Shown piece after piece: positions 54,901 through 62,279 of a stretch of DNA of 64,000 nt. The notes under the pieces are model-generated. The model ran no database searches. It had not been told where the DNA came from and saw only the letters and a program-made list of their open reading frames with translations. The translations under genes were made by a program, and so were the position numbers. Source of the stretch: Muricea muricata. Taxonomy: Eukaryota > Cnidaria > Anthozoa > Malacalcyonacea > Plexauridae. The DNA lies in NCBI GenBank assembly GCA_963855995.1, contig OY979717.1, positions 8,385,501-8,449,500 on the forward strand, read 5' to 3'. Numbering within the stretch: the stretch's first letter is position 1; every line of letters begins with the position of its first letter.

Positions 54901-57900
54901 ACAATGCTTGCGAGTTGACGTACTTCTACACCCTGATGGAGTGGATGAATGTTGAGCTAGTATTATATGTTGTGATGTCATTGTCTCGTATGTATATATG
55001 TATATATATATATATATATATATATATATATATATATATATATGTCATTGTCTCATATATATATAGATGTCATTGTCTCGTATGTATATATATATATATA
55101 TATATATATATATATATATATATATATATATATATATATATATATATAGATATATATATATATATATATAGATATATAGATATATATATATATATATATA
55201 TATATATATATATATATATATATATATATATATATATATATATATATGTATATATATATGTATATATATATATATATATATATATATATATATATATATA
55301 TATATATATATATATATATATATATATATATATATATATATATATGTATAGGTTATCATATGAGAGGCGAGGTGATATCAGTTTTATCGCTCGAGAGACG
55401 ATATCATATTTTGTCACGAGTGAGCGCAGCGAACGAGGGACAAAATATAATATCGTAACGAGAGCGATGAAACTGATATTACCGAGTCTCGAATATGATA
55501 ACCTATTTTTCACATACTTGTGCCTTTATCTAGAGCAAAAACCAGACTACATTTTCAAATTATTTACACTTTGAGTACATTTCGAAATGAATTCAAAATT
55601 ATTGTTTAAAATACGCTAAACAGGTAGCAATTACAAAAACAAACCAAAAATAACTTATCTTTTAATAGCTGCAAATTTCTTTCTGTTATTTTCCTTGTAT
55701 TATTTTATATTTCTATTGTTATCTCCCAATCGATCCTTCGGTCGGACGCCATCTTTGTTTTGAGCGGGACAAAAAACGATATCGCGGGACAAAAAACGAT
55801 ATCACGGGACATATCGTTTTTATGTCACCGTGTTATCGCCCGGATAAAGGCACAAGTATGTGATAAATATATATATATTTATATATATATATATATATAT
55901 ATATATATATATATATATATATATATATATATATATATATATATATATATATATATATATATATATATATATATATATATATATATACCAGGAATTAACT
56001 GCACCAGAATGGTTACGAGACTTGTCAATGATTTTAGAGCGCTCAATACCATTACTAGTAGAGCGGATATATTTATTTCTACGAAATAAATATATATATA
56101 TATATATATATATATATATATATATATATATATATATATATATATATATATATATATATATATATATATATTTATATATATATATATATATATATATATA
56201 TATATATATATATATATATATATATATATATATATATATATATATATATATATATTGATGTTTAAGAAAAGGCCACTAACGTAACTGGCTGACGCTATGA
56301 TAGTTGTCCTGAGCCATGTGTGTAGTTGTGTTGACGGCGAAGATAATAAATAAATAACGGTATCGTAACGGTAAATCATCTCTATTGCATCTTATTGTAC
56401 ATCACTTTAATCAATATGCTTTTTTCACTTTATGTTTAGACGGTCGAACATGAACATCCAATACATAAGATATCGTTTATATCTCATGATCCTGAGGACC
56501 GTCATGTATTTGGTTATATCTATAGTCCCCCACGGAGTGCTGCTAATGAGGCCAGGAAATATTATCTCTTTGCCATCAAATCTGATAAATCTGTAAGTTC
56601 AATATTTAAACTGAAATATTGTGAACTACTAATAGGCCGTAGGATGAGCGTCCAAAAGATGCTTAGAAAACGCATTCCGTTGCACCCCTCGTGGAACTAC
56701 ATAATTTCCACACGAATGGATAGATAAAACCTCACTTTATTAGAATCCGCTGCTCCCCAAGCGAAACAGGTGCACAACTGGGAAAAAATTCCCTCCAAAG
56801 TTTGTTAATTTCGCGCTTTGAAATATTCATAGATATAGTAGACCTAGATTGCTGACGTATACCTAGCGCGCGTGACGCCCAATAGAAGAATCCAAGATGG
56901 CGTCGCAACCGGGCAAAAACATTAGGAATTGTATTACAAAAAACAGGTTTTTGAGCTATTTTGATGGTTTAACTGCTGCGAATCACCTTCAACTGGACTT
57001 TTTTGAAAATAGATCACTATTGCGGAGGTTTTGAGCGCAAAATGAGAAGAGTGGGCTGGATTCTTACAAAATTATCGTTCGATAAAGATTTCAAGGAGTG
57101 GACGTTTTGACCGGTTTCGTTAGTTTGCGTGGATTATTGGACTTTTAACACTTCGAATCACGACCGATCGCATATATTTAGAAAACGATGTTTATCATAT
57201 ATCAAATATCGTTCGTTAAAGACTTCTGGAGTAGACAACTGGTTGTTTAGTATGTTCTTGTAGTAAATTTAACTTTTTTGCAAATTACTACTTCTAGTGA
57301 TTTTGATTTTGAGTGTTATTTTGATTTTTGCTTAGTATTAAATGTGAAATTGAACATCTGCGTAAAGTCCTTCAGTACTGGTACACTACAAGTTTTGCAG
57401 GAGGCAGCATGATTGACTTTAAGTTTGGATAAGGTAATAATGGACATGCAGGGTTCTGCTTTGGGCTTGCAGAGATGTCATATTTATTACAAATGAAAAT
57501 TGATATCTATAGGCAGAAGTCAATGTTACTTAATTATCTCTGTAGCAAGTTATATTGCTTAATTATCTCTGTAGCAAGTTATATTGCTTGATTATCTCTA
57601 TAGCAATCCTAAAGAATATCTGATTTTATAATAATGTTTTGCAAAAACTGTGTTTACATTCCCACACATTTACAAGCATTTATAAATGTCTTGTTAACAA
57701 GCTTACAGGAGCTTTAAAAAATTACAGCATTTCACAACTTGTTTTCATCTTTGCAACACATTTGTCACAGGCACAGCTTGTTGACAAATGGTGAGATTTT
57801 CATGTGCAGATTTCAATATTGTAATTGATTTTGAGCAAAATCAGAAGCACATTGGCAACCAGCAATATGTATTTTGAACTTTATTAAGCTGTACATCTAT

Positions 57901-60900: not shown

Positions 60901-62279
60901 GGTGGGTCATGTATATTTTGTAGGAAAATCAGGGGTGGGCCACACAAAATTAGCCTTTTAATAATTAAATTTTTATAGCCCCCCCCCCCATACTTTATGA
61001 CCAGTCCTTTAGAATGTTAAAACCAATATTTCAATAAATCAATTAAAATAATTTAGCATACAAGCAAGCGTAGTTTTCAGTGCGTTCTGGGAAATATTTA
61101 AGAGCGTGTGTTTATTTGTTAATATTACAAATTTTGAGCCCTATTCCGTGTCTTTTATATGTGGTTTTGACATAGTAAATGGGGGAAAACCATTGATCTG
61201 GATAATACTGGATCGCGCATAGAGTGGCATCAAGTGAAGCCAGCAGAGATGACGAATTTGGAGTACCAAGATGGCGGACAATCAGCATTTTCAATAGATA
61301 AATAAACTTCCTTATTTTAAGGAAATTTACGGAAATTGAAAACGCTGCTTAAAAGCTTACTCTTACACCCGCAAAGAACACTGGACCTGGAGTACCAAGA
61401 TGGCGGCGATGGCTTCAAAATTTTATTATGTATGCGCGATCCAGTATTATCCAGATCAATGGGGAAAACCCACAGGGAAAATCCATTTTTGTTAAATGCG
61501 CGTGCGCAGTGGGAGTTTGGATGACGTGCGCATGCGTATTTGTCACCAAAACAATGGCGGTTCGAATATTTCAAAGCGCGAAATTAACAAACTTTGGAGG
61601 GAATTTTTTCCCAATTGTGCACCTGTTTCGCTTGGGGAGCAGCGGATTCTAATAAAGTGAGTTTTTATCTATCCATTCGTGTGAAAATTATGTAGTTCCA
61701 CGAGGGGTGCAACGGAATTGCATCTTTTGGACGCTCATCCTACTGCCTATAAATGATTAGTAGTTAGTATAAAGCAAACATAGAAATTGCAGTCTCGCAT
61801 GAAAGAACAAATTGCTGTCTTCTGTCTTGGTAGATTTCTGATTGGAAAATGACGTTGTCCGCCATCTTCTTTTTGTGTTTGACCAATTAAATTACATACT
61901 AGATATCGTTGTAAAAGAAGTGAACTGACTGAAATTGCTTTCTGCATAGTTGACTGTATGCGGTTGCAATGGATCATTTTACGTGCACTAATTCTGTGTG
62001 AGCTGCAAGAATAGGTTATAATATACAAGAAAGTCTCGGCATTGGTTTGAAATGGTTATAACCTGGTATACATCATGGAAGAATTAATAAAATAAGATTT
62101 GGTTTTTTTTATTTTGTAGGCCGACGTTATAACAGTTCAACTGTATGAATTATTTCAAGTGGTGTATAAGATGCAAGAGAATAAAAAGAGCCAGGGTAAA
62201 GGAAGGGCAGGGTCTAAACAAAGAAAACACGAAGAATCTTCTCAGCCTTTGGAGCCATTGCAAGATAAAATGTTGCTTG
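48974..62279 (+). CDS. DAB: Disabled (DAB)-type adaptor, PTB domain exons; gene runs off the right edge
   Basis: Six phase-consistent exons: 48974-49076, 49256-49317, 53025-53096, 53191-53292, 56440-56592, 62120-62279, giving 217 residues. A Lys-rich start (about residues 8-34) precedes a PTB/PID domain: [80 protein letters not shown] and [14 protein letters not shown]. This matches DAB1/DAB2, which bind NPxY tails of lipoprotein receptors and integrins at the plasma membrane. A basic segment ([11 protein letters not shown]) follows. The last exon ends in phase 1 at a GTAAGT donor, so more exons lie beyond 64000. Introns 2, 4 and 5 are swollen by repeats. Confidence 0.93.
49727..50828. mobile_element. 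1.1-kb TIR element in DAB intron 2
   Basis: Ends AATAGACCTTTCC(A/G)GTAATTACG continue as inverted similarity (GTCACAGCTAACAC, CAACTTAGGA, GGCATAAAAAA-type pieces) for about 200 bp inward. Near the right arm a tight hairpin CGAAACCAAGGCTGAGGG / CCCTCAGCCTCGTTTTCG surrounds GCCATGA (about 50610-50655). No transposase. Confidence 0.8.
51220..51775. mobile_element. 555-bp foldback element in DAB intron 2
   Basis: Arms of about 150 bp (51220-51380 and 51600-51775) are roughly 80% complementary; shared pieces include GAAAGAGACTC, AATATATAGAAGTCT and GCCATC.TGGAT. No ORF. Confidence 0.7.
53690..54860 (-). pseudogene. BEL/Pao pol relic in DAB intron 4
   Basis: The minus strand carries [39 protein letters not shown] and MYVDDLTTG (YVDD box near 54040), broken by stops between these pieces. 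Upstream, 54440-54860 looks like the protease-RT linker. It comes from another BEL lineage than 2014-12587, judged by low identity in the shared RT motifs. No LTRs identified. Confidence 0.8.
54991..55350. repeat. (TA)n array
   Basis: About 360 bp, mostly TA with a few GATA and GTATA interruptions and two ATGTCATTGTCTC(A/G)TAT units near its start. Confidence 0.95.
55351..55863. repeat. 513-bp palindromic repeat unit, copy 2
   Basis: Same two-part unit as 12751-13263: palindrome 55351-55503 and the segment 55511-55862 bounded by CACATACTTGTGCCTTTATC. By eye about 95% identical to copy 1. (TA)n arrays flank it on both sides. Confidence 0.88.
55864..56255. repeat. Two (TA)n arrays around a 100-bp unique insert
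   Basis: TA arrays at about 55866-55986 and 56090-56255. The 55988-56089 insert is unique in this window and of unknown origin. Confidence 0.9.
56828..58869. mobile_element. 2.0-kb TIR element inserted in the left arm of the larger element
   Basis: Ends CATAGATATAGTAGACCTAG and its complement; inverted similarity runs about 380-450 bp inward (shared pieces include CCAAGATGGCGTCGCAACCGG and GATTCGAAGTGTTAAAAGT forms). Flanks GAAATATT and GGAATATT match at 7 of 8 positions, suggesting an 8-bp duplication. The right arm has about 70 extra bases with repeats of GTTCACTG. At 57508-57606 three copies of a unit of about 30 bp (AATTATCTCTGTAGCAAG) form a minisatellite. No ORF. Confidence 0.82.
58916..60301 (+). 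pseudogene. Decayed ORF of a transposon-borne, uncharacterised protein family
   Basis: ATG 58916 opens 159 residues up to a likely GTAGGG donor at 59392 ([11 protein letters not shown] and [11 protein letters not shown] give Cys/His-rich zinc-like patterns). Continuation is in pieces: 59541-59635, then 59611-59979 ([32 protein letters not shown]) and 59999-60301 ([32 protein letters not shown]), with frameshifts and stops between. I associate these stretches with a large family of uncharacterised cnidarian proteins, from memory. Function unknown. It begins 21 bp inside the TIR, so that arm probably supplied its promoter. Confidence 0.65.
60758..61007. mobile_element. 250-bp MITE with poly-G adjoining ends
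   Basis: Ends GGACTGGTCAAAGTATAGGG and, inverted, GGACTGGTCATAAAGTATGG. Inside, AGGGGTGGGTCATGAA-type units repeat four times. Confidence 0.78.
61190..61462. mobile_element. 273-bp foldback with 32-bp arms
   Basis: Arms 61190-61221 and 61431-61462 (core GATCTGGATAATACTGGATC) are almost exact complements. The interior contains AGTACCAAGATGGCGG twice. Confidence 0.78.

Follow-up and report, generated by a model that had tools for sequence, protein, structure and literature searches.

An intron of a Disabled (DAB)-like gene of Muricea muricata contains an uncharacterised open reading frame (ORF) enclosed by terminal inverted repeats (TIRs), which raises the question of whether the ORF is the enzyme of an undescribed transposon, a host-derived gene carried by a mobile unit, or a piece of a known kind of element. 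We analysed a window of 64,000 nucleotides (C2:8385501-8449500 of the 453-Mb genome; "the window" denotes this whole stretch), in which a nest of DNA transposons lies within the intron. The outer element of the nest, at 56633-61749, is most likely, with a probability of about 0.75, a 2.85-kb non-autonomous deletion derivative of an 8.2-kb element of the Academ superfamily, lineage AcademX. The intron and the borders of the outer element are as follows:

56593-62119, + strand: intron of the DAB-like gene, between PTB-domain exons, with a GTAAGT donor and a TAG acceptor in the sequence
56630-56632, unstranded: 3-bp target duplication TAA flanking the outer element on its left, from comparison of flanking bases
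56633-56828, + strand: left TIR, first piece, beginning TAGGCCGTAGG; 196 bp common to 39 other places at 94-99%
58870-58895, + strand: left TIR, second piece; inner end ~30 bp shorter than in copy L061, with which it was compared
61514-61749, - strand: right TIR, from the inverted-repeat match
61750-61752, unstranded: right 3-bp target duplication TAA, from comparison of flanking bases

The exons flanking the intron, when joined, encode a 77-aa peptide that matches Disabled homologs 2 and 1 in a PDB search (best E 1.3e-11), in agreement with the DAB identity assigned to the host gene by an earlier, sequence-only reading of the locus. The outer ends, drawn at 56624 and 61765 in that reading, are here corrected to 56633 and 61749, as TAGGCC is where other copies start and TAA flanks the window copy on both sides. 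The termini are TAGGCC...(T)GCCTA, with TAA directly outside each end. The inverted arms, described as about 200 bp long, are real (98% identity over an ungapped 155-nt core in the window copy), but they measure ~240 bp in sister copies; in the window copy the left arm is split by an inner element and ~30 bp are missing at its inner end. Elsewhere in the window, a BEL/Pao-type retroelement (2550-12209; Peptidase_A17, DUF5641, integrase zinc-binding domain and reverse transcriptase in Pfam) is split at ~5498-9262 by a second retroelement with a reverse transcriptase and, presumably, judging by motif, a tyrosine recombinase. Reading frames at 13323-14723 resemble a Penelope-like element with a GIY-YIG end; positions 13875-14720 have no Pfam match.

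The outer element belongs to a repeat family in which arms and ORF travel together. A search of the same genome with the left arm returned 228 candidates, of which the best 40 scored matches, window included, are 94-100% identical and, for the most part, start at TAGGCC or adjoining it. The ORF region lies within 1 kb inside the arm in 24 of these 40 matches, and some ORF piece lies within 10 kb on the same strand in 38, a pairing into which 12 of the 150 places of ORF fragment 3 were entered and in which the farther pairs may be separate elements; at the remaining two (C7:8820656 and C2:53173488) no ORF piece was found within 10 kb. Other copies of the arms thus do enclose the ORF, and neither outcome that had been named as fatal to a mobile element, namely arms that never enclose the ORF or an ORF family of single-copy genes devoid of TIRs, was seen. 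The 17 two-armed copies are 91-99% identical. The nearest, L061-L063, are 2.85-kb elements ~99% identical to each other and ~97% identical to the window copy over the ORF part.

The target site duplication of the family is 3 bp. Specifically, the triplets immediately outside the two ends are the same in all 17 two-armed copies, as well as in the window copy (17 of 30 ORF-region loci were counted, the other 13 being omitted as having one or both arms missing, truncated or beyond the fetched stretch), versus a mean of 1.45 matches and never more than 7 when the pairing of flanking triplets was shuffled 10,000 times. The triplets differ between copies and are not limited to TWA. A duplication of 8-9 bp, proposed earlier for the outer element, was tested at the ends originally drawn and was rejected. 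The view of the locus as a TIR transposon that carries a gene-like ORF and has itself received insertions is upheld.

The ORF is broken, and its family likeness ends at a deletion junction:

58916-59485, + strand: putative transposase remnant, fragment 1, N-terminal, with ATG at 58916; the open frame probably continues into an intron
59587-59979, + strand: putative transposase remnant, fragment 2, ending at an in-frame stop
59987-60301, + strand: putative transposase remnant, fragment 3, with at least 150 matches listed of 263 candidates; likeness to distant relatives stops near residue 85, at the deletion junction
60237-60239, unstranded: internal-deletion junction with TTG microhomology and ~5.5 kb missing, from alignment to a full-length copy

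The open fragments as found run from 58844 to 59485, 59587 to 59979 and 59987 to 60301. The ORF does start just inside the left arm, its ATG at 58916 lying ~20 bases past the arm's inner border; an intact ORF is not present, the three open fragments losing their family likeness at ~60237-60239. Of the 30 loci, 29 cover the in-frame stop of fragment 2; 24 of these carry it, 5 have TAC instead, and one locus does not extend over the position. The fragments have no Pfam match over any cut-off, which leaves the description of the family as uncharacterised in place. What survives in the window copy is the 5′ portion, in broken form, of the coding sequence for the transposon family's own protein, and the ORF should not be annotated as a gene.

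The origin of the remnant is revealed by a full-length relative at C1:29289568-29297796 (pieces L025, L076 and L077), which is 8.2 kb long and has the same arms. At 84-92% identity, this copy aligns colinearly with 1.6 kb at the start of the short element and 1.2 kb at its end, and the ~5.5 kb between the colinear parts is absent from the short form, with TTG on both sides of the break. There is thus one internal gap, the two forms are colinear otherwise, and their arms are identical in kind, as in a non-autonomous deletion derivative; that the short element derives by deletion from the full-length element is nearly certain. The junction is crossed with no break in alignment in 27 of 30 loci, a set picked by similarity to the window and hence biased toward the same deletion; two loci do not reach it, and L053 has extra sequence. 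In L053 (C2:70113325-70115052) the extra ~150 bp lies exactly at the junction, and this locus may stem from a separate deletion event. The arms also occur at C1:99872779, where both downstream parts are present at 92-93%. The left arm of the copy at C1:29289568-29297796 stops 6 bp short of the outer terminus, which makes that copy's own target duplication unreadable, and introns or stops interrupt its frames. An unbroken gene was seen in no copy examined, one full-length copy having been read in sequence and one by matches; working full-length copies may exist elsewhere in the genome.

The full-length copy also bears on whether the mobile unit carries a host-derived gene. The ORF family has no Pfam name, as such a gene might, but full-length copies that share the arms show the ORF running on into the rest of the element's own protein, and the protein family has more than 100 matches in the genome, with arms and ORF traveling together. 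A host-derived gene is therefore unsupported, and we regard this part of the sequence-only reading as scarcely credible.

The frames that lie open downstream of fragment 3 in the full-length copy specify a long protein, in which a conserved core is joined by a nuclease-like stretch and a Cys-rich end. Genome searches list at least 135 matches to the core stretch and at least 116 to the nuclease-like stretch (matches, not distinct loci); several lie in open frames spanning 600 to 1538 aa, and long open frames are present near C1:48836717-48839776. Judged by eye from sequence motifs, the nuclease-like stretch (L076, L078) presumably resembles an XPG/FEN-type nuclease, and the Cys-rich C-terminus (L076:4738-5028) presumably resembles a CXC, Cys8 finger. 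The nuclease of AcademX is of XPG type, and a Cys8 zinc finger is likewise known from this lineage. Profile searches returned the following: the Cys-rich end matches Pfam TCR at E 0.056 and 14.2 bits, below the cut-off of 23.5; six ORFs of the full-length copy match no Pfam transposase family at E<=1; the nuclease-like part matches nothing in Pfam, PF00867 included, at E<=10; and searches of the core and the nuclease-like part against PDB and NCBIfam gave no nuclease and nothing useful. No relatives in viral contigs were confirmed.

Two other protein families were seen in numbers in the same genome. Pfam XPG_I (PF00867) occurs at 47 places, 31 over the cut-off, which is far beyond the need of host genes and possibly reflects another XPG-carrying transposon family. 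None of the 47 overlaps any of the at least 116 nuclease-like places, the lists having been compared by eye, and one (C1:26146154) is found on the same strand as a core match (C1:26142765-26143271), 2.9 kb further downstream, possibly by chance. DUF6589 (PF20231) was tried as the identity of the core and rejected, with an hhalign probability of 0.2 in a shallow alignment of 12 ORFs; the window fragments and the L076 ORFs do not match its model at E<=1. DUF6589 resembles the element in being multicopy in this genome, with 104 matches, all over the cut-off and some in open frames of 600-1092 aa, and differs in that its similarity to the element's core is not detectable; it is probably mobile and unrelated to the outer element. 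Literature searches found no paper on DUF6589 and none linking Academ with XPG.

The 3-bp duplications, the nuclease-like stretch and the Cys-rich end together make Academ, and specifically AcademX, the most likely home of the full-length element. A passage in PMC10045372, which cites Kojima 2020 (Mob DNA 11:15) for AcademX, a lineage listed in Repbase, gives 3- or 4-bp target duplications for AcademX and 9- or 10-bp for AcademH, and ties the difference to the encoded enzyme, a nuclease or a helicase, respectively. The outer element, at 3 bp, falls in the AcademX range and outside that of AcademH. PMC9587614 lists Academ among the DDD/E superfamilies, and PMC3627910 mentions a RecQ helicase in Academ. 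The Academ/AcademX name is a weaker step than the deletion-derivative reading, drawing as it does on duplication length, anatomy, motifs read by eye and the statement of one paper.

The same anatomy and 3-bp duplications could also belong to a full-length element outside Academ, perhaps in an undescribed superfamily. The core and the nuclease-like part have no Pfam, NCBIfam or PDB match and no XPG_I at their places, which would suit such an element, but Pfam may simply contain no Academ model, and the Cys8 finger is one that we associate with AcademX. Duplication length and the nuclease-like part fit AcademX as printed in the passage of PMC10045372, and we consider an origin outside Academ unlikely. 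The fuller form of this alternative, a very numerous undescribed superfamily with 3-bp duplications, a novel core, a nuclease-like domain and a CXC-type finger, is in our view slightly more doubtful still; were the core to prove non-Academ, there would be one more superfamily. EnSpm/CACTA and Harbinger elements also give 3-bp duplications, but the termini here are TAGGCC and not the CACTR of CACTA, the six ORFs of the full-length copy lack a Pfam transposase match at E<=1, and the target triplets vary beyond TWA; membership in either is very unlikely. With assignment to AcademX preferred, the earlier suggestion of a transposon with an undescribed enzyme stands in its first half, a TIR transposon with its own protein, and is unlikely in its second, the duplications and anatomy fitting the described Academ (AcademX). 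On this reading, the DAB intron holds commonplace repeat biology and no new enzyme type.

The later insertions allow the history of the copy to be ordered:

56820-56828, unstranded: GAAATATTC, target duplication at the left end of the inner element; the site is uninterrupted in L061
56829-58869, unstranded: inner 2-kb non-coding element with long arms, in the outer left TIR; its left arm recurs in 39 other scored copies, 98-100% identical
58761-58823, unstranded: within the right arm of the inner element, a 63-bp mini-element, CAGTGAACTC...GAGTTCACTG, with an 8-bp duplication GGTATACG at 58753-58760 and 58824-58831
58870-58878, unstranded: GGAATATTC, target duplication at the right end of the inner element, agreeing with the left one at 8 of 9 bases
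60758-61007, unstranded: MITE1, GGACTGGTC...GACCAGTCC, with a 3-4-bp target duplication within TTAG
61192-61460, unstranded: MITE2, ATTGATCTGG...CCAGATCAAT, with a 10-bp duplication GGGGAAAACC at 61182-61191 and 61461-61470

The inner 2-kb element with its own long arms sits in the outer left arm as had been described, its arms 91% identical over 287 nt and its target duplication 8-9 bp with one mismatch. The best 40 scored copies of its left arm, window included, from 1266 candidates are 98-100% identical, and the inner element is therefore young. The ends of the 63-bp mini-element we take to be hAT-like. Both MITE-like insertions reported near the outer right arm are present. MITE1 is found in 21 of 30 loci, window included, and has its empty site in the full-length copy; L057-L060, which are more distant short copies, lack it as well. 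It therefore entered once the deletion had occurred and ahead of most of the sampled spread. MITE2 is found in the window copy only (1 of 30 loci), L061 having the empty site. As a separate observation, AANATGGCG occurs 10 times in the window, versus 1.57 expected (0 of 100 shuffles reach 10), for example at 56894, 58699, 61268 and 61397; its places include the inner element and MITE2, and the outer arms carry the related AACAATGGCGG. The motif AAGATGGCG presumably resembles a YY1 site.

We infer that the deletion arose from failed repair of an excision gap at the TTG microhomology. Transposase from full-length relatives would bind the arms in trans, and the short element would be cut out and pasted in with 3-bp staggered cuts. 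The short form would then have taken up MITE1 and spread, one copy reaching the DAB intron, where the 2-kb inner element and MITE2 probably inserted after its landing. The locus thus offers a dated stack of insertions, from full-length element through internal deletion, MITE1, spread and intron landing to the inner element and MITE2, and it illustrates how a full-length element elsewhere in the genome can account for an uncharacterised ORF within inverted repeats.

Compared with known systems, the element resembles AcademX in its 3-bp duplications and, in its full-length relatives, in a long protein that combines a transposase-like core with a nuclease-like part and ends in a Cys-rich stretch. 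It differs in that the window copy lacks the core and all that lies downstream of it, and in that the nuclease-like part has no Pfam XPG_I match, the comparison being with described features of AcademX. The maize Ds elements are internal-deletion, non-autonomous derivatives of a DNA transposon. The short element resembles such derivatives, with nothing notably different: the two ends survive along with a 5′ portion of the gene, the middle is lost at a short microhomology, and many copies have presumably been moved in trans.
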